Positions 2,246 to 39,398 of a DNA stretch of 40,071 nucleotides are shown here, in pieces. Every line of letters begins with the position of its first letter. Positions within the stretch are counted from its first letter, which is position 1. This DNA comes from an uncultured Treponema sp. (GTDB taxonomy: Bacteria; Spirochaetota; Spirochaetia; Treponematales; Treponemataceae): the NCBI GenBank assembly GCA_946540605.1, contig CAMNIU010000231.1, positions 1-40,071 on the forward strand, read 5' to 3'. The translations under genes and the position numbers were made by a program. The notes under the pieces were generated by a model that was given only the letters and a program-made list of their open reading frames with translations, ran no database searches and was not told the DNA's origin.

Positions 2246-4666
2246 TTAATTCTTAGAAACTAAATTATAAGCTTCTTTTAATCGTTCAATTTTTTCTGCA
2301 ACATCACCTTGTCCACGAAGGTATTCAATCAAAAGTGGCTCAAGATTATAATTCCAAAGGCATTCAAAAGGATTTTCTTCATCCATATACATTTTGTATT
2401 TTAAGAAATATGCTGCACCAATTTGATAAGCTGATGATAATCCGATTTCGTCAGAGATAATTATCTGATTTAGACTGTTCATTCTGTCCTTTAGTTCATC
2501 AATCAACGAATCATCAAAATCCGAAATTGATTCATTATTTCTTGAAAGCATTTCTTTACATGAATCTTCAGCTGTTATTTCTTTGAAAGTAAAACGCCTG
2601 CGCATAGCTAAGTCCATACTTTCTACACTGCGATCAATATCATTCATAGTGCCGATTACATATATATTTTTGGGGATATAAAATCCTTTCTTAAACGCAT
2701 CACCATCAGATATAAGATTTTGATATTGTGTTTGGACAAGACCTTCTTCTCCCCTGTATCCAGGTTCAATTGAGAAAAACAATTCACCAAATATCTTTGA
2801 AAGTTCTCCACGATTTATTTCATCGATAATGAAAACATATGGTTTATCTGTAGAAACTGCGGTTGGGTTAGTATATTTTTTTACAATATCAAGAACAGAT
2901 TGCAATGGAATAGAAAGCTTATACACCGAAGAAAGTGTCATGACAGTTCTATTATTCAATTCATAAATATTCTCTTTTATATTCTTTACCAACCACTTTA
3001 CATTTCTGAATCTCCAATAATCAGAATTGTTCTCTTTATCCACATAATAATCACCAGTTACAATTCCTATAGCATCAATTTCCTTATTCGAATAACAAGA
3101 TAATACAATGTCACCTTTCTGCATTTTATATTCAAAAGCATTTAGCTCATTCTTTCCACGTTCTGCAGGAGTTTCTTCCGTAATATATTCTGGTTCTTCA
3201 TTAAACCCTAATCTGATATAACCATTTTCTAAACAATCTCTTCTTACTGGGTTATCTCCAGTACCTTTTAATGATATCTTCCATACAGTGGCATCTTTTC
3301 TTAATTCAGATATAGTTGTTGAATCTATCGTTCGACTTAATAATGCCTTCTTACAAAATTCCTTGAAAACACCGTCCATCCGTTCAAAAGAATTTGCAAT
3401 ACCTTCATTAGAATTACTAGGCCTTATTCCTTCCACAAAATCTGTATAATCATAACTAGGATGAAATTGTACAAATCCAATTTCGTTATCTGTACAACCA
3501 AGTTCTTTTGCAATTTTTTTTGCAAGATATGTTTTTCCTGTTCCAGGGGCACCATGTAAAATTAAGTTATAAGTTTTTTTAAGAAGTTTAGATAATTCCT
3601 CTGCCTGTGACATATTTTCATCTCCTCCTAGTAATTCTTCCTCATTAGTTCTCTCTGATAACAGTGGTAAACAAACCCATAATATTGTTTGAACAACAAG
3701 TTTTTCATAAAATGGATTGCCATTAAGATATTTCTGTAATTCATTAATTATTTCTGTATCTTGTTTTACTTTACTGGCTATATCATCTACTATTGAAAGA
3801 TAATGAGTTACCCGATTAAATCCTTCTTCTCCAGTAATATCAAAGAAGGCAAGTAATGATTTGTAAACTCCAGTTTTAAAGAATGTATATTTTTCTGGAT
3901 ATTTACAAGACAAAAAAGTCAACGCAGTTCTTTCATCATTTACGCAAACTTTATAATTCTTTTCTTCACATAGCTTTTTAAGATCTTTCTGGTATGAATC
4001 CAATCTAGTGAAGAAATCTAACTTCTCATCAAATAAGTTTGAAATAATTTCTTTTGTTGCTTCGGCTGTCTCTTTATCATTTTGAAGCAAATTGTTGTAC
4101 ATTATTACATAATTAGTTGTATATACAAGATTTGTTTTTTTGACTTCATTAATAAGTACTGTTATTTCAGCATTACGTGTTTTCTCTATTAATTTCCATT
4201 TGTATAATTCATTTAAAATTGCTTCTTTTGGATTTGATTGAAGTTTATTCTTATATTCCTTGATTAATATATCAATTCGATCGTTATAAACTTGAGTCCC
4301 TATTTTCTCTAGGTCTTCACCAACTTCATCATCTGCTTTAGAGAATAATTGAAAACATTTCTTAATAGAATCTTCTTCTATTTCAAAGCCTGACAGATCT
4401 AATCTTACTCCCTTATTATGATGAGGAGCTTCTTCATATTTATTACTTAAAATATTCCAGAATTCATTTTTCCCAAAATGTTCACAATGAATATCTGGAT
4501 ATATTTTATTATCTGATTTTATAATTTCATAATGACAAGACCAATTTCCAACACGGCTTCTATTCTTTCCAATCCATATAAAATTTGAGCCTTTCTTAGT
4601 AATTCTGAAATCAGGATATAAATGTATTTGTTCTTCTACCTTCTTTTTGAACTCTTTGAAATTCAT
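2246..4666 (-). CDS. mcrB: McrB-like AAA+ GTPase/ATPase with PUA/EVE-like insert
   Basis: 806 aa; Walker A LHGAPGTGKTYLAKKIAKEL, Walker B YVFIIDEINRGELSKIFGELFFSIEPGYRG, sensor IGTMNDIDRSVESMDLAMRRRFTF; paired with McrC. Confidence 0.88.
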   Translation of the reverse strand: MNFKEFKKKVEEQIHLYPDFRITKKGSNFIWIGKNRSRVGNWSCHYEIIKSDNKIYPDIHCEHFGKNEFWNILSNKYEEAPHHNKGVRLDLSGFEIEEDSIKKCFQLFSKADDEVGEDLEKIGTQVYNDRIDILIKEYKNKLQSNPKEAILNELYKWKLIEKTRNAEITVLINEVKKTNLVYTTNYVIMYNNLLQNDKETAEATKEIISNLFDEKLDFFTRLDSYQKDLKKLCEEKNYKVCVNDERTALTFLSCKYPEKYTFFKTGVYKSLLAFFDITGEEGFNRVTHYLSIVDDIASKVKQDTEIINELQKYLNGNPFYEKLVVQTILWVCLPLLSERTNEEELLGGDENMSQAEELSKLLKKTYNLILHGAPGTGKTYLAKKIAKELGCTDNEIGFVQFHPSYDYTDFVEGIRPSNSNEGIANSFERMDGVFKEFCKKALLSRTIDSTTISELRKDATVWKISLKGTGDNPVRRDCLENGYIRLGFNEEPEYITEETPAERGKNELNAFEYKMQKGDIVLSCYSNKEIDAIGIVTGDYYVDKENNSDYWRFRNVKWLVKNIKENIYELNNRTVMTLSSVYKLSIPLQSVLDIVKKYTNPTAVSTDKPYVFIIDEINRGELSKIFGELFFSIEPGYRGEEGLVQTQYQNLISDGDAFKKGFYIPKNIYVIGTMNDIDRSVESMDLAMRRRFTFKEITAEDSCKEMLSRNNESISDFDDSLIDELKDRMNSLNQIIISDEIGLSSAYQIGAAYFLKYKMYMDEENPFECLWNYNLEPLLIEYLRGQGDVAEKIERLKEAYNLVSKN

Positions 4667-4753
4667 CTCAATGCTCCACTATAAATATAATAGCACAGGA
4701 AATGAATTACGGAAACTTTCTTAATTAGTTATATTGTTTCATAACACTGTTAC

Positions 4754-7700
4754 TTATTTTTGAAGCTTTATTGTTTTTTTCTTTCTTGTTTCCTTAAAAT
4801 CATATTTTTTAATTATTCCTAAATCAACTAAACCTTGTGCTAATAAATCATAACCAGTTTTAAAATCAATAGTGACTGATTTTTGCTTTCGAATCTTTGA
4901 GAAATGAATATTAAGATTTGCTATTGCTTCTATATAGTCCTGAGAAGAGAATTTTCTTGCACATTTTGAAATCAAATCGATTTTTAGCTTTTCACTTTCC
5001 ATTGAAAGAAAGTCATCTGAAGTTGTAATAAGAAGTTCCTGAATCTGATTCAATTCTAAATAATCATAAAGTCCATACTTCTTAATTAGCGCAATTATTT
5101 CTAATTTATTACTTGAATTACAAAGTGAAATAATATTGAAACAAATTAAATCTTTTTTCTCATTAAATGTAAGCCCCTTTTGCTTTTCAACAAAAAGAAT
5201 CTCTGTGTTAGTAATATTATAGTCTTCTGGATGTGATAAATATTTTTTTATATTATTTTTAATAAAACAATTAGAATAATTTAAATCAATCTCTCTAATA
5301 TACGAAATATTATCATTAGAAAAATCAACAATATTTTTATCGATTAGTAACTTAATTTTTTCTTTTGGTAATGATTTTTCTCTTAATCTATAGATTGAAA
5401 GCTCTTGAATAAAATTAAGTTTATTTATTTCGTTTACTGGAATCTCATCATTTTCAAGGATTGCAAAAAATATTTTTTCAAATTCTTTTTTATTAATTTT
5501 AGAAGGCTCATCTTTACCAATTAGTATAGAATTTTCTTTTATAAAGTCTATCAATATCTCAGACAATACCATATTATTTAATTTGAACAAAGAAATAATA
5601 TTATCCCAATTTGCTTCTATAATTCCTTTTTCAAAAATTGAATTCCATAACTCTTTTGATATTATATCATGAATGTGTCGAATTTTTATAGAAACATTTA
5701 CCTTTAAAATAAGAGCCTTTCGTAAGTCAAGAGATAATGCAGAATTATTAAGTAAACTAATTAAGTGATTTTCTTCTTCAATGATATTATCTTGTTTTAG
5801 AATTACGGCTTCAACAAAATAACTTATTTTCTTATTGACATTTTCAATCAATCTTTCATTTTTAGTATTACAGACACTTGAGTAAACGCATACGTTTTTT
5901 ATTTGATAATATTCAAAGATACAGTTGAAATTACTTAAAGTATATTTAAATATATCATATTCTATTATTCGAGAAAAAAGACCTTTTTCATTAATTACAT
6001 TTTTTATATCTGTAAAACAAATATCTAAGCCTTGTAAAATGAAGAATACTTCTTCAATATTGTCAGCTCTTGTTATTCCAAATAATACTTCTGTATTTTC
6101 ATTCAAGTATTTACAGAAAGATTCATTTTTATTTAATGTATATTTTGAATCTTCCTGATAATTTCCAAAATTTCCTAGACTTCTAATTATAGAAACTGCA
6201 AATTCTTTTTCATTAACAAAATCATCTGTATATGAAGCTAAAAATCTATCCCATAAATTTTCATAATTATCATATAGGTATGTAATAAATGGTGAACTTG
6301 GATATGAAATAATATATGATTTTAGAAACAAAAGCCCAGGTTCTTCCATTATATTCTTTGAAAGTTCTTTTAGCTCCTCTTGATAATTGTCAGGATTTTC
6401 TGCTAAATAATTAACTAAATAAAAATTGAATAATGCAGGATTATTCATTATAAAATAACCTTCAATTTTTTTAATTATTTCAACAACTTCAGTAATTTCA
6501 TAATCATAGCTTAATGGTTTTTCAGCATAAACTGACATAATATAATCATTATCAGCCTGAGATAAATCACCATTATGAAATATGGTTATATATTCTAAGT
6601 ATTGCTCATCTATTAAGCCAAGTCGTATAAACGAGAATTTTGGATCATCATAGTTTATTGAGTTTTCTTTCAAAACTGTATTAATATCTTCTTTGTAATT
6701 TGTATACAACATATTAAATGATATATGCTTAATATCAGATGTTTTCTTCCTTAACATTTCAACTTTATTCATCAAAACCAGGATTTGTTTTTTTTCGTTA
6801 TCTTCTACACTTGTTTTCCTCTGTTCATATGTTTTATTATCTAGACGTAACCCATTAAAATATTCTGAATCAAAGGCTGTTGAATAATTCATGGAATAGT
6901 GAATAAGTTTTGATGAAAAAATTAAATCAAAGTTATCGTCATCTGATTGTTTTATTATATCTCTTACTGTAATTGATGATGGACCCTTTTGATTACAATA
7001 ATAACTCAAATATAAGATACGTAATTCTTTTAGATTAGCAATATATTCTTGTTTACAATCCTCAATATTGTGTAGAGTACTCTCTATTTCAGAATTTATC
7101 TCACTAATTTTTTTCTCTGTAAATTTCTTTTTACAATTAAAAATATCAGCTATATAACCAGTACGTTTTTGCATCATAGCAAAATCAATGGGGAATAAGT
7201 TCTTGTAAACTATTAATGAAAATAGTTTTTTGTTATCTTTAGAACTACTTTTTTCCTTAAACAATATATATTCATTAATAATATTTTTAAGCAATCTCAT
7301 ATCATTGATAAATAATCCAATCTGTCTAAAGAACTGGTCATTCATATCAGAGAATAATTCTTTCTTATCTTCCTGCTTACTTATTTCACACAGAAAAGCT
7401 CCAGAATTAAGAACATTTGTATATGGAATAACAGGAATAATAAAATCAAAAAATTTAACTCGTTCTTCATCCTTAAACATTTGATCTCTTACCGCATATA
7501 TAAATTTCACATTTCGTCTTATTTGATTATTTTCATTAATAATCTTATTTATTTCTCGTAAATGTACAAAAATTTGATTGCTATTAAATCGATCTAAATC
7601 TTCAAAAATTACATATTCATATTCAGTTTGTTCAAAGAAGTACAGAATTTCATCTAATCTTTGATTTAAAATGGAATCTGATTCATAAGATTTCAACTCT

Positions 7701-8413
7701 ATTTCTGCATTCTTAAATGAAACTTTTTTCACTGAAATATTTAATAATTTTTTGTAAAACCAAATGTTATATTTATAAAATGGCTTTTGAATAAGAATGC
7801 AACCTATAAAAAATAAAAAAATCCTTACAAATTTTATAAAAAATGGTTTTATGAAGAAAAAACTAACAGGATAAAAAACTGCTTCAAGAATTAATATTAA
7901 AGGTACAATGAATGAAATTACCTCTAAAAATATTGTTCTTGCATTATTATCAGTATACCCCGTTATTCTTGGTAATCGAGAATTAGGGAGTTCTTTCATT
8001 GATTTTTTATAAATTAATTGATGTAAAATACTAATTTCAATGTTACGTAATTGTTCTTTTGATAAATTTACGAATAAATTATCATTCTTTAACTCCTGCT
8101 GGTTATTAGTTTTTTTTCCGCCAGCGTCATCAGTACCTTCTTTTGTTTGCTGAGTTGTATTGTTTGTATCATCACCAAGAAATGTAAAGGATGCTAAACT
8201 AACATTCAAACACTTATCTTCAATTTCCATGGTTTTAATAGCACTTTGTAAAAAGGTAGATTTTCCAGAACCGTAATTTCCAGTAATACCAATATTTCTT
8301 ATTTTTGGATCTTCAATTGCATATTTAAATGCATCAAAACGTGCTTCACCTTCTAAACTAAGATTATCTTTTGGAAGCAAATTGTCAAATTTTATACTTT
8401 TTTTATTACTCAT
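4754..8413 (-). CDS. YobI/KAP-like P-loop NTPase with two hydrophobic segments
   Basis: 1219 aa; NIGITGNYGSGKSTFLQSAIKTME (Walker A), YEYVIFEDLDRFNSNQIFVHLREINKIIN (Walker B), hydrophobic stretch VISFIVPLILILEAVFYPVSFFFIKPFFIKFVRIFLFFIGCILI. Confidence 0.75.
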   Translation of the reverse strand: MSNKKSIKFDNLLPKDNLSLEGEARFDAFKYAIEDPKIRNIGITGNYGSGKSTFLQSAIKTMEIEDKCLNVSLASFTFLGDDTNNTTQQTKEGTDDAGGKKTNNQQELKNDNLFVNLSKEQLRNIEISILHQLIYKKSMKELPNSRLPRITGYTDNNARTIFLEVISFIVPLILILEAVFYPVSFFFIKPFFIKFVRIFLFFIGCILIQKPFYKYNIWFYKKLLNISVKKVSFKNAEIELKSYESDSILNQRLDEILYFFEQTEYEYVIFEDLDRFNSNQIFVHLREINKIINENNQIRRNVKFIYAVRDQMFKDEERVKFFDFIIPVIPYTNVLNSGAFLCEISKQEDKKELFSDMNDQFFRQIGLFINDMRLLKNIINEYILFKEKSSSKDNKKLFSLIVYKNLFPIDFAMMQKRTGYIADIFNCKKKFTEKKISEINSEIESTLHNIEDCKQEYIANLKELRILYLSYYCNQKGPSSITVRDIIKQSDDDNFDLIFSSKLIHYSMNYSTAFDSEYFNGLRLDNKTYEQRKTSVEDNEKKQILVLMNKVEMLRKKTSDIKHISFNMLYTNYKEDINTVLKENSINYDDPKFSFIRLGLIDEQYLEYITIFHNGDLSQADNDYIMSVYAEKPLSYDYEITEVVEIIKKIEGYFIMNNPALFNFYLVNYLAENPDNYQEELKELSKNIMEEPGLLFLKSYIISYPSSPFITYLYDNYENLWDRFLASYTDDFVNEKEFAVSIIRSLGNFGNYQEDSKYTLNKNESFCKYLNENTEVLFGITRADNIEEVFFILQGLDICFTDIKNVINEKGLFSRIIEYDIFKYTLSNFNCIFEYYQIKNVCVYSSVCNTKNERLIENVNKKISYFVEAVILKQDNIIEEENHLISLLNNSALSLDLRKALILKVNVSIKIRHIHDIISKELWNSIFEKGIIEANWDNIISLFKLNNMVLSEILIDFIKENSILIGKDEPSKINKKEFEKIFFAILENDEIPVNEINKLNFIQELSIYRLREKSLPKEKIKLLIDKNIVDFSNDNISYIREIDLNYSNCFIKNNIKKYLSHPEDYNITNTEILFVEKQKGLTFNEKKDLICFNIISLCNSSNKLEIIALIKKYGLYDYLELNQIQELLITTSDDFLSMESEKLKIDLISKCARKFSSQDYIEAIANLNIHFSKIRKQKSVTIDFKTGYDLLAQGLVDLGIIKKYDFKETRKKKTIKLQK

Positions 8414-8809
8414 TTAATTTCCTTTTTTCATACTATGTTTTTTTTTATTTTATTCACATATTTTTACAAAAATAAATTAAATTTGTGAATCTAACTTTTT
8501 CCGCTGGTAGTAAACGACTGCTATTAAATTCGATCCATTACCTTTTTATAATTATACTACATCTACTTTTTTATTCAAATAATACTGAAGAGAAATAAAA
8601 ATGATATACTTTTCTCCTCTACATTAAATTTTATGATTATTTTCTTAGCCTTAAATTGCCTTAATGTAGATGCTAAAATTTTTTCTAGTTTGAAATGGTA
8701 GCTCAGATTTCTGAGTATTATGGCTGATATAAAAAAGGAAATGCTTTCAACTGAGATTTCCCTGAAGAAACGCTTAATTAGAAAAACTCTTCATTTTGCA
8801 AAAAATGAA

Positions 8810-9003
8810 CTAATCAGCAGGAAGCCAGTTTACAGTACGCAATTTTTCTTTTGAAACCCATTTTTGTTCTGGAGTTTCACAAGGTTCGAGCTTTCCACCA
8901 GGAATTTCCCAGCCATCTTTGTAATCGCATAGCCACGCAGAGTTGTAAATATCTCTTTCTTGTTTGTTTCTGGATTTGTACGGAGAAAGAGCGCTCCGCT
9001 TAC
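8810..9003 (-). pseudogene. Remnant of a Nudix (MutT-like) hydrolase with internal deletion of the Nudix box
   Basis: Reverse reading ending at TAG 8810: ...ERDIYNSAWLCDYKDGWEIPGGKLEPCETPE|QKWVSKEKLRTVNWLPAD*; GWEIPGGKLEPxET is the typical lead-in to a Nudix box but the REUXEEXGU segment is absent; no ATG start. Confidence 0.55.
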
Positions 9004-9019
9004 TGTTAATTATTTAATT

Positions 9020-12000
9020 TTACACTGCTTCCAAAAATTTTGGCATAATCGGAGTTTCTACATGCCATTCTATGCTCATAGGCTTTTCTCCTGAAGAAGT
9101 AATATAATCTACAAAGCCAAAACAATAGAATGGATTTGTATTTCCAAAGCCGTCATTTATTGACTCACGAACAAATAGAATAAACTTTTTTCCATTTTTC
9201 TTCTGATTAATATATCTACTCCCTGAATTATTATAACTCTCTTTACTCTGACTTTGCCAATGAAATTTATACTCAGAAATAACATAATCTTTATACATAT
9301 TAGTAGGAGAAAAATCTTTTTCAGATTTATTTAATGTAACAAAAAATAATTCCATATTTTCATTAATTGGAACTACACCGCTTTGTTGTTGTTGAGTAAG
9401 ATTATTCCATTTATTAATCTTCATTCCAAATAAAGTCAAAATCTCATTTCTATTATAACATCCGTAAGTCTCAATTCCAGGGTCAAGATTTTCAGACAAT
9501 GGTTCTGTTACTATTTCAAGATTTTCAATTTTATATTCAACAAGTTCTTTTATTTCTTTTACAAACAATGGATAATCACCTAACTTTTTAAGAAGAGCAG
9601 GCAAAGAAGACATATCTGTCTCTGGTCCATATTTATCTGCTTTTTTATAAAAGAGATTGTAACAGAAAATATATAAGTATTTTTCTTCGGTACGATTTGA
9701 GCAAACAATATTTTCCTTATCCTTGATGATTTTTAAAATGAAACGTAAAAAATTTGCACAATTCAAATGAATAAGCTTTGTTATGTTATTAGTAAGTAAC
9801 TGTGTAAATACATCATCTTGGTAAGTAACTTTTCCAGCATCACGTAATAAAGAAGTCCAGCATTTCTTTCCCTTATAAATCAAACGAACATCTTGATTGA
9901 TATTTTTAATAAACTCACCAAGTGTAGGAATGCCTGTATAGCTTTGTATACTTTGTTGTAACTTTCTTGAGTTAAAGATTGCTGCACTAATCGTTTGAAG
10001 GATATACTCTTGTGCTTTCTGCTCCATCATAATTGAACAGCCAGGTGGCAATAATACAAAACCTTCTGATATCTGTTTTTTAACATCTATACCACCATCG
10101 CCTTTCTTAAGTAAGGCTCGGAATCTGCTTTCGAAATCGAATTTCTTATTTACATGGGCTACAAAGTCAAATACAGTAAGTACTTCTTTTTCTGGGCAAA
10201 GTCTTAAACCACGTCCCAATTGCTGTATGAAGATTCTTGAACTTTCTGTTGGACGAAGAAATAAAACTGTATCAACTTCTGGAATGTCAACACCCTCATT
10301 AAACATATCAACAACACAAAGATAATTAATTTCTCCTCGTTTAAGTTTATCTACAATTTCTTTTCTTTTCTCTTTTGGCTGAGACGAATCATTGGAAACT
10401 AAATAATCTGCTTTTAGCCCTGCAGCAGTAAGATCTTCCGCTGTATATTTTGCATGTTTCTTGTCGGTACAGAAACAAAGTGCTTTTACTTTGTGTTCAT
10501 CAGCTAAATAATAATTTAGTGCCTTCACAATTAAAGCGGATCTTTGTTTAGTACAAAGACAAGCTGAAAGTTTTGAATCAATATAGCTTCTACCACTCCA
10601 AATTGATTCATCTGTTAAATCTGTATCATCACTTATACAGTAATATTGGAATGGAGATAGTAACCCCTGCTCTTGAGCTTCAGGTAAACGAATCTCTGCT
10701 GTAATTTTCCCACCAAAATCAGGGAGAAGACTTGATTCATCTCTTCGTTCTGGAGTTGCTGTAAGACCAAGAAGAACTTTTGGCTTAAAATGATTAAACA
10801 GTTCTCGATAACTCTTTGCAGTTGAGTGATGTGCTTCATCAATTACAATGTAGTCATAATAATCAGGCTGCAATTTACTAAAAGTCTCTTCCCAGCGAGA
10901 TGCAAACATATCTACAGAAAGAAATAAATTATCTAAACCATTTGTCGGTTTATAATCACTTACCCATAGATCACCAAAATTTGCATCATTTAAAACACTG
11001 CGATATGTCTTGATGGATTGCTCAAGGATTTCTTTTCTATGAGCAATAAATAATAATTTATGTGATTGTTCTTTATTACAGAATCGTCTGTAATCAAAAG
11101 CAGAAATAACTGTCTTTCCGGTTCCTGTTGCAGCTACTACAAGATTTTTATAATTGCCATTCTGTTCTCTTTCTACTTGGATTTTATCAAGAATTCTTTT
11201 CTGATGTGGTAAAACCGTATATTGCTGAAGATGCTCATAAGAAATTCCTCCAGTCTTAGCAAGCTTTAATTCTTTTCGGAGTTTTTCTTCGTCTTCTTTT
11301 TTATATTCTTCAAAATCAGAATTATTCCAGTAAGTTTCAAAGGTTGCTTTTGCAGCATTTATGATATGTTCATTTTCAGCATTTGTTACACGAATATTCC
11401 ATTCCAAACCTTCTGTCTGCGCTGACTTAGATAGATTTGATGATCCGATGTATGCCGTAGAGCAACCAGAGTTTCTTATAAAAATATAAGATTTTGCATG
11501 AAGGCATTCCTTCTTTATATTATAAGAGATTCGAACTTCTGTGTTAGGTAACTCCGCAATTCTCTGCACAGCCTTTGGATCTGTGATGCCACAATAAGTT
11601 GTTGTAATAATTCTCAGCTTATGATTTGGTTGACTACAGAATTTTTTTAAATCTTCATAGATTAGATTTAAACCAGAAAGCTTAAGAAATGAAATTATAA
11701 AATAAATTTCATCAGAAGATTCTATGTCTTTTTTAATCTCACTATAAAGAGGTATTTTACTTCCTCTTCCTGTAAACAAATATGAATAAAGGAACCCTGT
11801 TTCCGGCCGATTTGTTTCTGTGTTTGCTGCCTGTTGTTCTATCTTTTTCTGATTTGAAATAATCTCAGCAAGAAGATTTTCATTATCACATATTAATTCT
11901 TCATTCGAAGTTGAAAACGATTGAATAATCTGATTTACAAGTTCAATGTTATCAGATAATGAATCATTTTCATCTAATTTATTTTTCAAGATTTTCGACA

Positions 12001-12136
12001 AATATGAAGCAAGAATACTAGATGCTTCAGCTTTATCGATTGGAAGTTTTTTAGCATAACAGTCTTGTAATGTATTTATCTCAGAAAGAATCTCATTATT
12101 AATAATATTTTCGTATATACCCTGACTAAGCTTCAT
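9020..12136 (-). CDS. DEAD/DEAH-box helicase with N-terminal phospholipase-D-like domain and C-terminal DUF3427
   Basis: 1038 aa; HAKSYIFIRNSGCSTAYIGSSNLSKSA (PLD HxK..N), LVVAATGTGKTVISAFDYRRF (Walker A), YIVIDEAHHSTAKSYRELFNHF (DEAH), FIQQLGRGLRLCPEK; C-terminal part NRNEILTLFG...FVDYITSSGEKPMSIEWHVETPIMPKFLEAV resembles DUF3427. Confidence 0.88.
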   Translation of the reverse strand: MKLSQGIYENIINNEILSEINTLQDCYAKKLPIDKAEASSILASYLSKILKNKLDENDSLSDNIELVNQIIQSFSTSNEELICDNENLLAEIISNQKKIEQQAANTETNRPETGFLYSYLFTGRGSKIPLYSEIKKDIESSDEIYFIISFLKLSGLNLIYEDLKKFCSQPNHKLRIITTTYCGITDPKAVQRIAELPNTEVRISYNIKKECLHAKSYIFIRNSGCSTAYIGSSNLSKSAQTEGLEWNIRVTNAENEHIINAAKATFETYWNNSDFEEYKKEDEEKLRKELKLAKTGGISYEHLQQYTVLPHQKRILDKIQVEREQNGNYKNLVVAATGTGKTVISAFDYRRFCNKEQSHKLLFIAHRKEILEQSIKTYRSVLNDANFGDLWVSDYKPTNGLDNLFLSVDMFASRWEETFSKLQPDYYDYIVIDEAHHSTAKSYRELFNHFKPKVLLGLTATPERRDESSLLPDFGGKITAEIRLPEAQEQGLLSPFQYYCISDDTDLTDESIWSGRSYIDSKLSACLCTKQRSALIVKALNYYLADEHKVKALCFCTDKKHAKYTAEDLTAAGLKADYLVSNDSSQPKEKRKEIVDKLKRGEINYLCVVDMFNEGVDIPEVDTVLFLRPTESSRIFIQQLGRGLRLCPEKEVLTVFDFVAHVNKKFDFESRFRALLKKGDGGIDVKKQISEGFVLLPPGCSIMMEQKAQEYILQTISAAIFNSRKLQQSIQSYTGIPTLGEFIKNINQDVRLIYKGKKCWTSLLRDAGKVTYQDDVFTQLLTNNITKLIHLNCANFLRFILKIIKDKENIVCSNRTEEKYLYIFCYNLFYKKADKYGPETDMSSLPALLKKLGDYPLFVKEIKELVEYKIENLEIVTEPLSENLDPGIETYGCYNRNEILTLFGMKINKWNNLTQQQQSGVVPINENMELFFVTLNKSEKDFSPTNMYKDYVISEYKFHWQSQSKESYNNSGSRYINQKKNGKKFILFVRESINDGFGNTNPFYCFGFVDYITSSGEKPMSIEWHVETPIMPKFLEAV

Positions 12137-12205
12137 ACTTGCAGCTTAGCAGGAATTTAAAAATTGGACCAGATCTTTTTTGTACAACACACCTAAAAGT
12201 TGTCT

Positions 12206-12868
12206 TTATAATTCAATACTGTTACATAACTTCTTAAAAGCTCCCCAAACAATTAGTTGAGGAACAATAACCATTACTGAAAAGCTTTCTAGTTTTTTGG
12301 CAATTTCATGAAAAGCTCCAGAAAATGAATTATTTGCTATACATAACGCAACTAGCAGACCTACCATAAAAAAACAAATATGAATAAAACCTGTAAACTT
12401 AGCAGTTCTACATAAAGGCTTTGAACTCTCAAGCAATATCTTGATTTCATTTTCATATTCTTTTCTTACTTCCGATTGACAATTTATTTTACCTATTGCC
12501 ACAAATTCTGCATGAGAAATATACAATAATGAAATAAGACAAAGACAGATAATGCTATAACCCACAATATAATTACCCTCACACAAGATGGTTCCAATTA
12601 TTGATGTGATACCATACATATTCTTTCCTATCAGAATTAATTCACTGCGTAAAAGTGCAACCATTAAACCTACTGATAATAATCCAAAATAAGTACAGAG
12701 TTTTCTGAAAACACAAATATTTTTCTCATTTGCAAGGAAAAAAATCAAAATGCTAAACAGTAAAACAAAGATTTCTGCTCCAAGAAGAATACTTTCTGGT
12801 AAGACTATTAGCGTTGCTAAGATCAAAAATATACTAACAGTCAAAAAGTTTGATAATAATTCTTTCAT
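12206..12868 (-). CDS. Small multi-pass membrane protein, function unknown
   Basis: 220 aa ORF with several hydrophobic segments (VSIFLILATLIVLPESILLGAEIFVLLFSILIFFLA; HICFFMVGLLVALCIA). Confidence 0.7.
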   Translation of the reverse strand: MKELLSNFLTVSIFLILATLIVLPESILLGAEIFVLLFSILIFFLANEKNICVFRKLCTYFGLLSVGLMVALLRSELILIGKNMYGITSIIGTILCEGNYIVGYSIICLCLISLLYISHAEFVAIGKINCQSEVRKEYENEIKILLESSKPLCRTAKFTGFIHICFFMVGLLVALCIANNSFSGAFHEIAKKLESFSVMVIVPQLIVWGAFKKLCNSIEL

Positions 12869-30857: not shown

Positions 30858-31799
30858 TTAACTTGATATTTTTTTCTGAACTTTTTCAAAAAATTCAGAA
30901 ATTCGATTACTTATATATCCTTCATCTTTCCCATATTTAGCAGCCAATTCACCTTGAGTCGGCAGCGCTTCATGAGAAAGAAAAACTTTTAGTAAATCTA
31001 CATCCAAGAAACTTCTTTCTTGTAATAGTTCTACAATCTGTGCAATTAAAAAGGTTCTTTCCAATACTTGAAGAAGCCTCAATGTAATAAAAGTTGAAAG
31101 ATATTCTTTCTGCCTCTCCTGACATTTATCAAAAACCTGTTCAATTATTGATATATCTTCTAGAGCATATTCTGTTTTGAAAAGACTCTGTTCAGGTGTC
31201 AAATAATTATTATGAACAGCTTCTGTTTCAAAAATAGAGGTTTCAGATCCATCTTCAATATCTTTTATCTGTTCTTCTACAAGCTGAGATTGATGATATT
31301 TAATAACCAACTCTTTTACTTCATCCGGTGTCAATCCAGATTGTTTTGCAAGCCAGGCTTGAACATTCACTTTTGAAGGGTCTTTTCCCAATTGTTTCGC
31401 TTTTTCAACAAGTTCAACAGCTCTATTATATTCATCCTTAGTACACATCCGGAATTTTCTGACTTCTGCCTTTTCCTTCTTATGCTGAATTTCTGTTGCT
31501 AAGCAGGTATAGAGGAATCCTATGTATGATGAGTCTTCCTGTTCCTTGTATTTTTCGACTGAACGTCTTACACAGTGAGTAATCTCAATACAGGCTTTAC
31601 AGACATCTTCTTCTTTAAAACACATTAGAGTCCAATCCCAGATTGGAGCATATATTTTTTGGAGAAGCTTTTTATAATCAAGAGATTCTTTATCTGTTAT
31701 TGCCTGAATCTTAGTAAATATTGCAAGAATTTCTTCTTCTTTCTTTAGTTTGGCTTCGCTATTTATCATATGCCCCACCTTATAAAGAGAAGAATTCAT
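30858..31799 (-). CDS. Divergent sigma-factor-like protein
   Basis: 313 aa; region-2-like helical N-terminus, KQLGKDPSKVNVQAWLAKQSGLTPDEVKELV (region-3-like), C-terminal HTH LPTQGELAAKYGKDEGYISNRISEFFEKVQKKI. True start may be 31769. Confidence 0.5.
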   Translation of the reverse strand: MNSSLYKVGHMINSEAKLKKEEEILAIFTKIQAITDKESLDYKKLLQKIYAPIWDWTLMCFKEEDVCKACIEITHCVRRSVEKYKEQEDSSYIGFLYTCLATEIQHKKEKAEVRKFRMCTKDEYNRAVELVEKAKQLGKDPSKVNVQAWLAKQSGLTPDEVKELVIKYHQSQLVEEQIKDIEDGSETSIFETEAVHNNYLTPEQSLFKTEYALEDISIIEQVFDKCQERQKEYLSTFITLRLLQVLERTFLIAQIVELLQERSFLDVDLLKVFLSHEALPTQGELAAKYGKDEGYISNRISEFFEKVQKKISS

Positions 31800-32622: not shown

Positions 32623-33372
32623 TCAAAACCAATTACATCTATTACTTATATTAGATTCAAGGAAAGGCGTTGGAATCTCTATGCACTTATCAAAAGATAA
32701 ATCAATTGTATTATTTGCCAGATTCACAACAGTCGCTTTTACCTGATATTTTTCAGCATCATCATAGTAGAGGAAATTTAAGGTGTCCCCGATTTTCAGG
32801 TAGAACTTAAATCTACCAGCAAGATAGTATCTATTATCATAATCAGCAACTGATGTATTTATTATCTCAACTTTATATACTTCATCCGAGTACTTTGAAA
32901 CTTCCGTAATAAAATATGCATAATTACAATTTGATTTTATCTCTTTATCAAAAGAATAAGAGCGATTCCAAAATGTTGGATAATCGGGCAGCATCAAATT
33001 AATTTGGAAGTCTCCTCTAGAAGGTCTTTCAAAAGTAAACGATAAGCTTTCTCCTGTTCTAAAATGCTTTCTTAAATATAATTGTGGATGCTTTTCAAAA
33101 TATTGCAATATACAATCCATAATTGTTGATGCATCAGCTTTTTCATCAAGCGAAAAGACTTCGCTAGCAAATCTAGGTTTTTCAATATTTCCTTCAAGGC
33201 CAATAGAAATTTGAAAAGGTTCCAGCTGCATATTGTCTTGAATTCTAAACTTTGGAATTTTAGGATCGTTTTTTCTTAATGCTGAAATATCTTCCAATAA
33301 GATACTTCCTTTCTCTTTATCAACTAATGGAATAAGTCCATAACCAAGTTCTAATAAAATTGGATTTTCCAT
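32623..33372 (-). CDS. Protein starting with a partial FlhA cytoplasmic-domain (FHIPEP) segment; remainder unknown
   Basis: 249 aa; LLELGYGLIPLVDKEKGSILLEDISALRKNDPKIPKFRIQDNMQLEPFQISI closely resembles the start of FlhA_C (ElGYGLIPLVD..qGg.LLerI..iRrq...PpiRirDNlqL.P.eY.I). Confidence 0.65.
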   Translation of the reverse strand: MENPILLELGYGLIPLVDKEKGSILLEDISALRKNDPKIPKFRIQDNMQLEPFQISIGLEGNIEKPRFASEVFSLDEKADASTIMDCILQYFEKHPQLYLRKHFRTGESLSFTFERPSRGDFQINLMLPDYPTFWNRSYSFDKEIKSNCNYAYFITEVSKYSDEVYKVEIINTSVADYDNRYYLAGRFKFYLKIGDTLNFLYYDDAEKYQVKATVVNLANNTIDLSFDKCIEIPTPFLESNISNRCNWF

Positions 33373-34448: not shown

Positions 34449-35291
34449 CTATTTTTCCCTCCAAGAAACCTTAAATCCCAACTTCTGAGCAACCTTATTA
34501 AAATAATCTATCCTTGTTGGGTTATACTGATTTGAAACAACAATTTTCTCACCTGAAGATAAGATTATAGGATTATTGATATCTTTTACTCTTCCATCTA
34601 TTAAGTCTTTCTTAGAAACATTTTCTAATTCTTGAATAAACACAGGAGTACCACTCATTTCAATTCCATCAGGAAAAGCTCTCTTTAAGTCTGCGAAAGT
34701 TATATTCTTATTCTTCTCAACATAATATTTCACAACTTCATATGGAAATGAACATTTTCCTACATATTTACCTAAACCTTCAAATGTGTACTGTTTAGTA
34801 TCTTTACTATTTTTATGCACTGTTTTTGTGGAAATAACTTGAAGATTTGAATTCTTAAATAACAATTTTCCTCTTCGCATATCTTCAGGTCTAAGAGTCT
34901 CTTTAGAATCAAATGCAGTAACATAATCTTTGACATTCCAGCTCCAGGCTTCTACCATTTGGAATTCTGTATTATATAAAATCCAAATCAATATATCGAA
35001 ATCATAGTTCCTGGCTTTGCGTACATTTGTAACTGTACTTCCGGGTTTTCCACTTGGGCGATTTGCTTTTATTTGGTATCTAAGTCCATTATATTTAAAA
35101 TCAAATCCTTTATTTACAGCAGTAATCGTCTGCATAAAATTTGAATAGTCACTTTCTTTCATACCCAATAACATAGCAGCATCAAACTCTGATATAGAAC
35201 TCAATATACCTGGTGCTACGCCAAACTCTTTTTGCCATTCCAAGGCCAGTTCTACAAGTTTCTTTCTTAATTCAATTCCATTTAGAGACAT
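34449..35291 (-). CDS. Predicted restriction-endonuclease-like protein
   Basis: Internal start MSLNGIELRKKL at 35291 has a better context than 35414; YNGLRYQIKANRPSGKPGSTVTNVRKARNYDFDILIWILYN suggests a PD-(D/E)XK-like QIK core. Confidence 0.6.
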   Translation of the reverse strand: MSLNGIELRKKLVELALEWQKEFGVAPGILSSISEFDAAMLLGMKESDYSNFMQTITAVNKGFDFKYNGLRYQIKANRPSGKPGSTVTNVRKARNYDFDILIWILYNTEFQMVEAWSWNVKDYVTAFDSKETLRPEDMRRGKLLFKNSNLQVISTKTVHKNSKDTKQYTFEGLGKYVGKCSFPYEVVKYYVEKNKNITFADLKRAFPDGIEMSGTPVFIQELENVSKKDLIDGRVKDINNPIILSSGEKIVVSNQYNPTRIDYFNKVAQKLGFKVSWREK

Positions 35292-35333: not shown

Positions 35334-35358
35334 TTCATTCCCGTGCCTTGGGAATGAA
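35334..35358. promoter_or_regulatory. Inverted repeat TTCATTCCC-GTGCCTT-GGGAATGAA in the divergent promoter region
   Basis: Perfect 9-bp arms, 7-nt spacer; followed by TTTATATTTTATAT (possible -10). Confidence 0.6.
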
Positions 35359-35446: not shown

Positions 35447-36295
35447 ATGAATTATCAATATCTGTTACGTCAGATTAATGATCAGCCGGAACTGCAGAAA
35501 GAAGAATCTGTGATAATTGAAAATCCTTTTGAGAAAAAGGATGAAAACAAATCAGCTGCCAACTCCGCTTATGACTTAAACGTCCTCAATACATCTCTAC
35601 CTGCAGATGAAATTGTGGAGATGGTTCAGAACGCAATTGCAAATGATCGTAAAGCTTACGGTAGCCAGCAGGGAATCAGAATCCTCTTTTACGGAGTAAG
35701 TGGTGCCGGGAAAACAAATCTTGCTCATTACATTGCAGACTCAATTGGCAGAAAACTTCTTTGTAAAAATGCCTCTGACATTCTTGGTATGTATGTTGGT
35801 GAATCTGAAAAGAATATTGCTAATACTTTCTCGGAGGCTAAAAAAGCAAATAAGGTTCTGCTCTTTGATGAGGTTGATTCTTTCTTCCGGGAAAGGTCTC
35901 TGGCCTCTCAGCGTTTTGAAATCACAGAAACAAATGAGTTTCTGACTCAGATGGAAAATTACGATGGCATTGTAATCTGCACAACCAATCTGCGCGGAAT
36001 TATGGATAAGGCAATGCAGCGCCGTTTTCACATCATGGTTGAGTTTAAGGCTCTTAAGGCTGAAGGTGTGGAAACTCTTTTGAGTAAATATTTCCCGCAG
36101 TTTGAATTTGATAACAACGTCATTCAAAGCCTCTGCAGATATGACAGTGTTACTCCCGGTGATTTTGGAAATATCTCTTCACGACTTAGATTCATGCGGC
36201 CGGAAAAAGTCACAAGCGAATATATCATCCAGGAGCTTTGCAAGGCTCAGGAAGAAAAAGAATACGGAAAGAAAACCGTAGGCTTTATGCAATAA
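35447..36295 (+). CDS. AAA+ ATPase (FtsH/VCP-like core)
   Basis: ATG 35447 preceded by caggagga; IRILFYGVSGAGKTNLAHYIADSIGRKLLCKNASDILGMYVGESEKNIANTFSEAKKANKVLLFDEVDSFFRERS...ICTTNLRGIMDKAMQRRFHIMVEF. Confidence 0.87.
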   Translation: MNYQYLLRQINDQPELQKEESVIIENPFEKKDENKSAANSAYDLNVLNTSLPADEIVEMVQNAIANDRKAYGSQQGIRILFYGVSGAGKTNLAHYIADSIGRKLLCKNASDILGMYVGESEKNIANTFSEAKKANKVLLFDEVDSFFRERSLASQRFEITETNEFLTQMENYDGIVICTTNLRGIMDKAMQRRFHIMVEFKALKAEGVETLLSKYFPQFEFDNNVIQSLCRYDSVTPGDFGNISSRLRFMRPEKVTSEYIIQELCKAQEEKEYGKKTVGFMQ

Positions 36296-36300
36296 CTGTC

Positions 36301-36321
36301 ATCCCGAACTTGTTTCGGGAT
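36301..36321. repeat. Palindromic ATCCCGAA-CTTGT-TTCGGGAT element between the AAA+ and FlhA/sigma genes
   Basis: Perfect 8-bp stem, 5-nt loop; resembles widely dispersed REP-like intergenic palindromes. Confidence 0.65.
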
Positions 36322-36340
36322 CTATAAGGAGATATCGAAT

Positions 36341-37672
36341 ATGAACAAATATAGACAAATAGATTTATTTACTCTTGAACTAGGAAACGCTCTTTGTCAG
36401 GAAGCTTCATTGAACAGTATCCTGAAAACAATTACTTCAATTCGCGAAAATATTTTTGAACAGTACGGAGTTGTAATTCCATCAGTCAGAGTAAAAGACA
36501 ATAAAAGTCTCTCTCCCTTTGAATATGTGATTAAAATCTCCGGACTTGAAACCGCACGTTATGAACTCAAAAAAGATTCTCTTTTGATTCTTGATCTTGG
36601 AAACGTTTCATCCAAAATGAGAGGAACTAAGGCTAAGGACCCGACTTATGGTTTACCAGGAATCTGGATTTCTTCTGCAAGAAAGGAAGAGGCAAAAGAA
36701 AAAGGATATCTCATTGTTTCTCATGAGAAACTTATCAGGACTCTTCTTTTTGAAGAAATAAAGAAGAATCTCGCAGAAGTCATTACTACTCAATATGTAG
36801 AAGAACTTCTTAATGAAATTATGTTTTCTGACCATGCCCTTTGCGACCAGATTGCAAGAAAGCATGGATCAGAATCTGTTTCAATCATAAAAGAAGTTCT
36901 CAAGACCTTGTTGAAAGATGAAGTAAATATCACTGATATTATTTCTATTCTCGAAACTATTGCAAACTCAGCAAAAGTAAACTATGAGAATATTGATAGG
37001 CTTGTTGATAAATGCCGCATTGCAATTGCTCCTTATATCATTTCTTCCTTGATAACAGACGGAAATCTTAATCTGATTTCTGTTGGAATCAATTTATCGA
37101 ACTACATTCTTGATAATTCAAAAGATATTTTATCTTTTAGTTATGACAGAAAAATACTTGGTCAATTTAGGAATGAATTACTTTCCATTCTTGATAATCT
37201 GGAAGTAACACCTGTAATTGTTTGCTTTGAACGTATTCGTAAAGAAGTAAGTTTCATAATTAATGAACTCCTTCTCTTACCCGGAATCAAAGTGATAACA
37301 GATGTGGAACTGGCATCTGTTCGAAATAGAATACATATCTCCAATGCTGAGCTCATTGCTACTGTTGGAGAAGACTTTCCTATCGAAGAGTCCAAATCAG
37401 AAGAAGAAAAATCTCCAAAAGAAGAGTCGATGCCATCCACACTGAAACCTCAGCTAGATAAGAAGGATGCATATGCCATTCTCCAGAAACAACTGAAAAC
37501 AATTCTCGACAAGCTCCCTCAACAAGAACGAGAAATTATCTCCATGCGTTTCGGCCTCGATGGAACTGGAAGTCACACTCTGGAAGAAATTGGCATGTAT
37601 TTCAATCTAACTCGCGAAGAAATCCGAGGTATTGAAGCCAAAGCCCTTCGCCTTCTTCGAAAAGATATTTAA
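36341..37672 (+). CDS. Soluble FlhA cytoplasmic-domain (FHIPEP) protein fused to sigma-70 region 4
   Basis: 443 aa; residues ~1-340 FlhA_C-like (LELGNALC...[29 protein letters not shown]...[55 protein letters not shown]...[13 protein letters not shown]...[34 protein letters not shown]); acidic linker; residues ~372-443 [55 protein letters not shown] = sigma region 4. Confidence 0.82.
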
Positions 37673-37685
37673 TAATCTGTTTTTT

Positions 37686-37704
37686 ATTCCCGTGACTTGG
37701 GAAT
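37686..37704. promoter_or_regulatory. Second copy of inverted repeat ATTCCC-GTGACTT-GGGAAT
   Basis: 18/19 identical to 35337-35355; also followed by TTTATATTTT. Confidence 0.6.
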
Positions 37705-37766: not shown

Positions 37767-38405
37767 ATGAAAAAGATTATTAGCTTTTTCGCAATGTGTT
37801 TGGTTGGGGTTTTTGCTTTTGTGGGCTGTGCTAGTGCTCCAAAAATGAAGGATGTATCAGGTCCAACTGAAATTATTGAGCATAAGGGAACTGCTTTTGG
37901 TGTTACTCAGCCGAATTGGGTTCAGGAGGTGCTTTTTACTTCAAATCAGAAGGCTCTTCAAAAGGCTCTCGGTATTGATAAACATGTTTGGGTAGTAACA
38001 AAGCAGGGTGAAAATCTGGATTTCGTTTCTAACTGGGCTGATCAGGTTGAAGCTCGTGCTCAGATTTCGGCTTCCATCAAGCAGGGCATTTCTGATTTTG
38101 TCGGAGCTCATCTGGTTGGTGATGACGGTGATGTTGAAGAGACTGTTGAAAGATATTCAGCTCGCGCTTCTGCTATTACGGTTTCTGGCCTGAATAAGGA
38201 AGCTGACTGGTGGTTCCGCGGAATTACAAAAGCTGATAAGAAGGCTGGCCGCGAACCAAAGTACACTTACCTTGTTGTTTATTCGCTTGATGAGGATTTG
38301 TATCAGAAGCAGATAAAAAAGGCCTTTAATGGCGAGGATGACAAGGTAGTTGATGATTTAATCCACTATCTGATGAATTACACAATGGTTCTGGGGAAGG
38401 ACTAA
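37767..38405 (+). CDS. Lipoprotein of unknown function
   Basis: 212 aa; MKKIISFFAMCLVGVFAFVGCASAPK signal peptide with lipobox; gcaggaggataaac RBS. Confidence 0.75.
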   Translation: MKKIISFFAMCLVGVFAFVGCASAPKMKDVSGPTEIIEHKGTAFGVTQPNWVQEVLFTSNQKALQKALGIDKHVWVVTKQGENLDFVSNWADQVEARAQISASIKQGISDFVGAHLVGDDGDVEETVERYSARASAITVSGLNKEADWWFRGITKADKKAGREPKYTYLVVYSLDEDLYQKQIKKAFNGEDDKVVDDLIHYLMNYTMVLGKD

Positions 38406-38426
38406 TTCTCGTGAGGAGGGCTGTAT

Positions 38427-39398
38427 ATGAAAAAGACGATTTATTTTATAACTCTAAACATTTTGTATTCAGCCCTCTGTTTTGCGGCTGCTCCTACCTG
38501 GAAGCTGAATCTTGAAAAGCAGTTTCCATCTGAGAAATATGTTCGAGCCATTGGGGAAGGGACAACAGAACCAGCTGCTAAAAAGTCTGCACTTGCAGAA
38601 TTGAGCGCTTATTTTTCTCAGACAATTATTGCAGAGTCCGAAAGCTATCAGAAAATCCGACAGGCAGGAGCTGGCAATGGAACAAGCTCAGATTTACGGG
38701 AGAACGTAATTGTTCATTCCGATACAGAGCTTTTTTGTGTCAGATATACAGATGCCTGGACCGAGCCAAAATCAAAGAAGATTTATGTTTGTGCTTTTAT
38801 AGATCGCAAAGAAGCCTGGGATCTTATTACTCAGAAAATGAAAGGACTTGAAGACAAATGCAATCAGCTTTCAAAACTGGAAGATAAGGAAATGGAGCCC
38901 CTCAAGAAACTGCTGCTTCTTACTAAAGTCAGGCCCCTTTATTCTGAGTATTCCGAACTTTATGAAAAGGCTGTCGCCTTATTTCCAAAACGCGGTGAGC
39001 AATTTGAAGCCTTTATCAGAAAAATGGATGACTATATGAACGAATTGATGCTTCTGAAGGCTTCTACAGCAATTCAGGTAAAGGTCTCTGGAGACAAGGG
39101 AAATTCAATCTATAGCAAAATAACTGAATTATTGATGCAAAAGGGCTTTCTGATTTCTTCTGACGGCCGCTATCAGCTTTCGGCTACTGTGAACTGGAAT
39201 GAAGCAAAATTGAATGAGGTTTATTCGGCTTACCCAAATATCAAAATCCTTATTACAGGAAACGGGCGGACCTTTGCTTCATTCAACGGAGAATGCGAGA
39301 AGATTGCGGCTTATAACCAGGAAAGTATGCAAAGAAGTGCAATTTTTCGTCTGGAAGAGTTACTGGAAGAAAGCTTCATCAAAGAGTGTTTTGAATAA
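38427..39398 (+). CDS. LPP20-like secreted/envelope protein
   Basis: 323 aa; signal peptide then KYVRAIGEGTTEPAAKKSALAELSAYFSQTIIAES, typical LPP20-family N-terminal pattern. Confidence 0.65.
   Translation: MKKTIYFITLNILYSALCFAAAPTWKLNLEKQFPSEKYVRAIGEGTTEPAAKKSALAELSAYFSQTIIAESESYQKIRQAGAGNGTSSDLRENVIVHSDTELFCVRYTDAWTEPKSKKIYVCAFIDRKEAWDLITQKMKGLEDKCNQLSKLEDKEMEPLKKLLLLTKVRPLYSEYSELYEKAVALFPKRGEQFEAFIRKMDDYMNELMLLKASTAIQVKVSGDKGNSIYSKITELLMQKGFLISSDGRYQLSATVNWNEAKLNEVYSAYPNIKILITGNGRTFASFNGECEKIAAYNQESMQRSAIFRLEELLEESFIKECFE

Follow-up and report, generated by a model that had tools for sequence, protein, structure and literature searches.

The window, by which we mean the whole stretch of 40,071 nucleotides analysed, contains a gene for a soluble protein in which the cytoplasmic domain of FlhA (FlhA_C) is fused to a sigma-70 region 4 (sigma4). 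An AAA+ ATPase gene lies 45 bp upstream of it, and the two are set between a WYL regulator and a lipoprotein/LPP20 operon in the following arrangement:

32623..33372, minus strand: second, partial FlhA_C relative (Pfam E 1e-5), about 60 amino acids of FlhA_C N-terminus plus 190 amino acids
33426..34448, minus strand: WYL-domain transcription regulator (Pfam WYL E 4e-14), slot flank
34449..35291, minus strand: restriction-endonuclease-like gene between the WYL gene and the operator (PADLOC mREase_II E 2e-7, PDC-S57 E 3e-8)
35338..35354, minus strand: palindromic putative operator copy 2, TTCCCAAGGCACGGGAA, one of two copies in the genome
35369..35396, minus strand: promoter-like TTGACA-N16-TAAAAT, 14 bp upstream of operator 2, directed towards the restriction-like and WYL genes
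35447..36295, plus strand: AAA+ ATPase, 282 amino acids, IetA-like (Pfam AAA E 9e-27; PADLOC IetA E 3e-26)
36341..37672, plus strand: FlhA_C-sigma4 fusion gene, 443 amino acids, soluble
36350..37315, plus strand: FlhA cytoplasmic domain of the fusion, residues 4-325 (Pfam FHIPEP and Foldseek 6ch2_A)
37376..37468, plus strand: acidic linker, residues 346-376, poorly conserved
37505..37663, plus strand: sigma-70 region 4, residues 389-441 (Pfam), RpoD-derived by sequence, without the RpoD C-terminal tail
37687..37703, minus strand: palindromic putative operator copy 1, TTCCCAAGTCACGGGAA, just past the fusion stop codon and before the lipoprotein gene
37767..39398, plus strand: lipoprotein gene (212 amino acids) and LPP20-like gene, conserved flank; an LpoB-like gene is next

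The reading frame of the fusion (36341-37672, plus strand) starts with ATG, has a Shine-Dalgarno sequence and contains zero internal stops. A preliminary description of this DNA had proposed that the protein contains the whole FlhA cytoplasmic domain without the transmembrane half, joined through an acidic linker to region 4 and lacking region 2 (-10 recognition and core binding), and our searches supported each of these points. Positions 327-653 of the Pfam FHIPEP profile match residues 4-325 (E 2.4e-52), and a PDB sequence search returned FlhA over residues 8-308 (E 9e-36). The structural comparison suggested at that time, run with an AlphaFold2 model (mean pLDDT 75.1; alignment rows besides the window's were related loci from other genomes), gave 6ch2_A as the best FlhA_C structure (Foldseek E 8e-20, TM 0.82 over the target). 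Profile positions 1-326 are absent and we found no transmembrane stretch in the fusion, the best 19-residue hydropathy being 1.39 against several windows above 1.6 in the host FlhA. The linker has a mean pairwise identity of 0.25 across the fusions and a pLDDT of about 30 in its core, and of the sigma regions only region 4 was detected by the profile search.

In its parent protein, FlhA_C is a docking platform for chaperones and substrates. We assigned the residues of the chaperone-binding dimple ourselves to what we take to be the corresponding Salmonella FlhA positions (the E. coli FlhA sequence compared is numbered +25). Across the eight fusions, D456 appears as E in six and D in two, F459 as F in six and Y in two, and T490 is mostly lost. 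Of 63 alignment columns without variation among host FlhAs and the E. coli sequence, 37 retain their residue in 75% or more of the fusions, whose FlhA_C domains have a mean pairwise identity of 0.53. The C-domain fold is complete, as in FlhA/SctV (TM 0.82 to 6ch2), and the dimple is partly kept; unlike FlhA/SctV, the fusion lacks the transmembrane export-channel half, carries sigma4 and sits on a branch apart from the host FlhAs, and the host retains its own ordinary full-length FlhA elsewhere in the same genome (C205).

The search for other FHIPEP-sigma4 fusions and their neighbours, also suggested in the preliminary description, yielded seven further loci with the same two-domain frame, which rules out a frameshift or assembly join at the linker. 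Altogether, eight copies occur in seven of about 196 Treponema genomes and are 41-83% identical to the window copy; the G014 copy lacks its 5' end, which falls beyond a contig edge. The FlhA_C-sigma4 family is therefore real and conserved, and the fusion is an accessory gene rather than an assembly error. Several of the genome assemblies are in fragments; completeness is 81% for G112, which has 5% contamination, and 84.8% for the window's genome of 3.06 Mb. Nearly all of the approximately 196 genomes have an FlhA match, and only the seven carry the fusion. Outside the genus, none was found in the 396 order-level and 395 phylum-level Spirochaetota genomes sampled. The search beyond this phylum covered plasmids, phages and viral contigs together with one pattern-based genome scan (close relatives only). 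Plasmids, phages and viral contigs gave no full-length match, and a phage or plasmid origin was rejected on that ground; scans of viral contigs with the AAA+ protein and with the mobile-element FlhA_C gave no matches either. In an FlhA_C tree that has some long branches, a branch with 98/89 support separates the host FlhAs from the soluble FlhA_Cs linked to AAA+ genes, whether these carry sigma4 or not. Sigma4 may have disappeared from the AAA-only members, or it may have been acquired repeatedly. In agreement with the earlier remark that no described function was known for this architecture, our literature search retrieved no description of it and did not find FHIPEP and sigma-70 region 4 together. 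Neither soluble FlhA_C proteins nor a protein that joins FlhA_C to a sigma domain seem to have been described before.

The C-terminal domain matches Pfam Sigma70_r4 over residues 389-441 (E 3e-13), and a PDB sequence search of this part returned region 4 of SigA/RpoD, with the sigma4 entries 4g6d/4g8x among the matches. It is 59% identical over 64 amino acids to the RpoD of its own genome, with which it shares the MRFGL core, and is far from FliA; judged by sequence it is RpoD-derived, and an origin from FliA was rejected. In contrast to RpoD/SigA, the fusion has no regions 1-3, and all fusions stop soon after LLRK, without the RpoD tail. Sigma4 is the best-kept part of the fusions (mean pairwise identity 0.67). 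The positions that we take to read the -35 element in E. coli sigma70 (R584, E585, R588 and Q589) are not conserved as a set: R588 is kept in all eight fusions, E585 in six, R584 in four and Q589 in none, a drift judged from these few sequences. R586 is likewise kept in none of the eight. The variants at this segment are TREEIRG, TSEEIRG, PLEKIRR, PLEKIRM and TRNEIRK, whereas RpoD of the window's genome and of four other fusion genomes is invariant at TRERIRQ. The window's own copy retains R584, E585 and R588; the initial view of a textbook -35-binding domain nevertheless fails for the family. Because the fold is right but the reading positions drift, recognition of the -35 element is doubtful as a common function. 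A split sigma factor is unlikely. Region 4 may bind RNA polymerase or anti-sigma proteins.

The AAA+ partner has intact Walker A/B motifs, arginine fingers and pore loop in the alignment, and is without an obvious substrate-binding domain of its own. The pore loop reads Y/F-V-G-E-S in fusion-linked copies and W-V-G in L042/L043. Between the two genes, at 36296-36340, there is a short hairpin, CCCGAACTTGTTTCGGG. The AAA+ gene had been noted as a neighbour of the fusion, and it is kept in four of the seven loci where that side is visible, directly upstream of the fusion in each (window, G112a, G142 and G167). We found no copy adjoining the fusion in G105, G112b and G137, so the pairing is not obligatory, and in G014 that side is cut. 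The same AAA+ is also paired with an FlhA_C without sigma4 in G060, G113 and G015. Relatives of about 780 amino acids were set aside, the two typical ones scanned having a second AAA stretch and no FHIPEP. The partner resembles IetA of the IetAS system, with an NCBIfam IetA score of 70 bits against a cut-off of 510. IetAS pairs IetA with the subtilisin-like peptidase IetS, whereas the window's ATPase is paired with FlhA_C-sigma4, and no IetS peptidase was found in the neighbouring genes scanned.

The 3.06-Mb genome contains exactly two copies of the palindrome TTCCCAANNCACGGGAA, and these bracket the AAA+ and fusion genes; a reversed-pattern control gave no matches in the genome. In related loci the palindrome also brackets the cargo, in a single orientation per locus, and in G157 five copies punctuate an array of cassettes. 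On the WYL side, a spacing of exactly 14 bp separates most of the palindromes from an upstream TTGACW-N16-TAWAAT or TAGAAT. The promoter-like elements on this side score 10-12 of 12, the maximum among 3000 random window stretches being 10, reached in 74. We detected no strong promoter directed into the AAA+ gene. BrxR is a WYL protein that represses a phage defence island, and it binds to inverted repeats situated on the downstream side of the -10 box of its own promoter (PMC9122601). Like the BrxR/CapW loci (PMC9122601, PMC9122589, PMC9122588), the window combines accessory genes with an adjacent WYL regulator, and a palindrome closely follows a sigma70-type promoter that reads towards the regulator. 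It differs from them in that its cargo consists of export-gate-domain proteins, and regulation of this cargo is predicted from the arrangement. Since the geometry of the palindrome matches that reported for BrxR, control of the site by the WYL protein is likely by analogy.

The region between the lipoprotein/LPP20 operon and the WYL regulator is an exchange slot whose cargo varies from genome to genome. In the window, it holds the AAA+ and fusion genes together with the restriction-like gene, the start of which we place presumptively at Met-42 of its reading frame. In G015 the slot is empty, in G112b it holds the fusion alone and in G040 an ankyrin protein. Soluble FlhB_C-DUF7738 proteins fill it in G045, G035, G158 and G190, and FlhB_C-DUF7738-ankyrin proteins with Fic and HTH genes in G034 and G119 (cargo of G158, G119 and G190 assigned by similarity to scanned members). 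The Pfam matches behind the FlhB_C assignment are weak (E 0.0016 and 0.011); it is supported by a profile search of the PDB, helped by mobile-element members, and by a profile-profile comparison with host FlhB (E 8e-8, probability 94.5%; controls 0.2%). The NPTH self-cleavage motif is lost in these proteins. Where a fusion locus is visible from one side only, the flank seen is that of the WYL gene or that of the lipoprotein. The WYL flank is 73-92% identical between loci. Divergence is much greater in the cargo than in the flanks: between the window and G112b the fusions are 40% identical, as against 97% for the lipoprotein and 75% for the WYL protein. A constant link of the cargo to the lipoprotein operon was rejected, as the operon family is present in 114 of 196 genomes, mostly without such cargo.

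Beyond the WYL gene, the window continues into a defence island. On the minus strand between 795 and 32400 we observed genes for McrBC, a Tmn/YobI-type ATPase, a type IV restriction enzyme, an Mko-like helicase, a kinase, PP2C and a vWA protein, as well as Card1-like CARF-nuclease and other CARF genes, a defence-like ensemble. The partial FlhA_C relative at 32623-33372 is 50% identical over 64 amino acids to a mobile-element FlhA_C (P0003), and its remaining 190 amino acids had no match in the loci compared. Soluble gate-domain proteins also occur in mobile-element-like loci (L116 of G015:C3, 1231-9045; L044 of G112:C299, 6278-10761; L117, 6758-7900). In the G015 and G112 elements, soluble FlhA_C lies beside a MoxR-type AAA+, a DUF2201 vWA protein and WYL; the G015 element has two FlhA_C-FlhB_C pairs, and that of G112 adds FliM. 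Small soluble FlhB_C proteins were found in several genomes as well. FlhX of Helicobacter and YlqH of Bacillus, both soluble FlhB C-domain proteins, show that the cytoplasmic domain of an export-gate protein can exist as a soluble paralogue. They are of the FlhB type, unfused to a transcription domain and outside any exchange slot, whereas the window protein carries FlhA_C; the FlhB_C form without its membrane part occupies the same slot elsewhere.

Our preferred reading, which we hold tentatively as plausible but short of probable, is that the AAA+ and FlhA_C-sigma4 genes form a two-gene accessory cassette in a WYL-regulated exchange slot, most likely serving conflict with phages or mobile elements. 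Based on the operator geometry and the BrxR precedent, the WYL protein would bind the TTCCCAANNCACGGGAA palindromes bracketing the cassette, repress itself and gate expression of the cassette. The soluble FlhA_C could then act as a recognition and assembly platform. As the pairing recurs and the motifs are intact, the AAA+ ring would remodel whatever FlhA_C holds. Given the drift of its reading residues, region 4, captured from RpoD, would not read a -35 box but would work through contact with a protein, either the flap of RNA polymerase or a phage protein directed at sigma region 4. We infer a role in conflict from the WYL precedent, the exchange of cargo, the resemblance of the partner to IetA, the companion genes of restriction-like, Fic and MrcB_N type and the defence island on the far side of the WYL gene. 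Against this counts the other flank of the slot, which is the lipoprotein/LPP20 operon and not a defence gene. If the cassette reading is true, a docking platform of the export gate has been put to a use other than secretion. With one regulator, two operators genome-wide and two genes the locus is a ready test unit. A broader generalization, which seems rather unlikely to us as it stands, is that FlhA_C and FlhB_C of Treponema could be interchangeable recognition heads of new WYL-controlled, AAA+-assisted immune cassettes, with the captured region 4 as bait or brake against phage takeover of transcription.

The export-gate theme suggested by the soluble FlhB_C proteins of the same slot, together with the whole FlhA_C fold, the retention of F459 as F/Y and D456 as E/D and the adjoining LPP20-family gene, would also suit a sensor of the flagellar export state, an idea close to that of the preliminary description. 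In such a sensor, flagellar chaperones or substrates would dock on FlhA_C, and sigma4, being tethered to it, would modulate transcription through recruitment or blockage of RNA polymerase. We consider such a sensor unlikely, as T490 is mostly lost, sigma4 comes from RpoD and not from FliA, its -35-reading residues drift, and the fusion occupies a swapped-cargo site in only seven of about 196 genomes though nearly all have an FlhA match. Since the site is a WYL-operator slot with FlhB_C counterparts, an exchangeable accessory cassette appears a better description than a flagellar regulator. Interference with the export gate, by which soluble FlhA_C or FlhB_C would compete for flagellar export partners and lower motility, draws on the G015/G112 elements, which might act in this way and which carry soluble FlhA_C (in FlhA_C-FlhB_C pairs in G015), MoxR AAA+, vWA and, in G112, FliM. 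It leaves sigma4 and DUF7738 unexplained and the partner-binding dimple has drifted from that of host FlhA, and we regard it as improbable.

Phage proteins that bind sigma region 4 exist, and sigma4 could accordingly be an integrated decoy, a bait for AsiA- or gp67-like proteins whose binding trips the FlhA_C/AAA+ assembly. Sigma4 is better kept than FlhA_C (0.67 vs 0.53) while its DNA-reading positions drift, 4g6d/4g8x are among its PDB matches, and the defence-labelled MzaA of the MZA anti-phage system likewise ends in an RpoD-like region 4 (NCBIfam E 6e-22). The match to MzaA is limited to residues 321-441 and to region 4, with 78 bits against a family cut-off of 800. We know of no Treponema phage anti-sigma protein, and AAA+-FlhA_C pairs without sigma4 exist, so that sigma4 cannot be the sole possible trigger; on balance we find the decoy doubtful. 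That the gene is a degenerating, functionless product of a chance fusion of FlhA and RpoD fragments would fit its accessory and rare occurrence. It is nonetheless largely refuted by conservation, since all eight copies, with identities as low as 41%, retain an open frame, the two folds and a common junction, and we give it hardly any credence.

Three further observations concern neighbouring genes. At 30858-31799 (minus strand) of the window, beside a CARF gene, there is a 313-amino-acid protein that looks by eye like a divergent sigma factor, with a region-3/4-like C-terminal half; no convincing family match was obtained for it. A 248-amino-acid protein family adjoins the fusion in L035 (10692-11438) and L036 (281-1027); its L035 member has no Pfam match, and the proteins of the two loci are 91% identical. 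Pieces of this family, together with an FlhB_C protein, are also found in the five-palindrome array of L205 (G157:C1:872000-885000, at 4146-12416).
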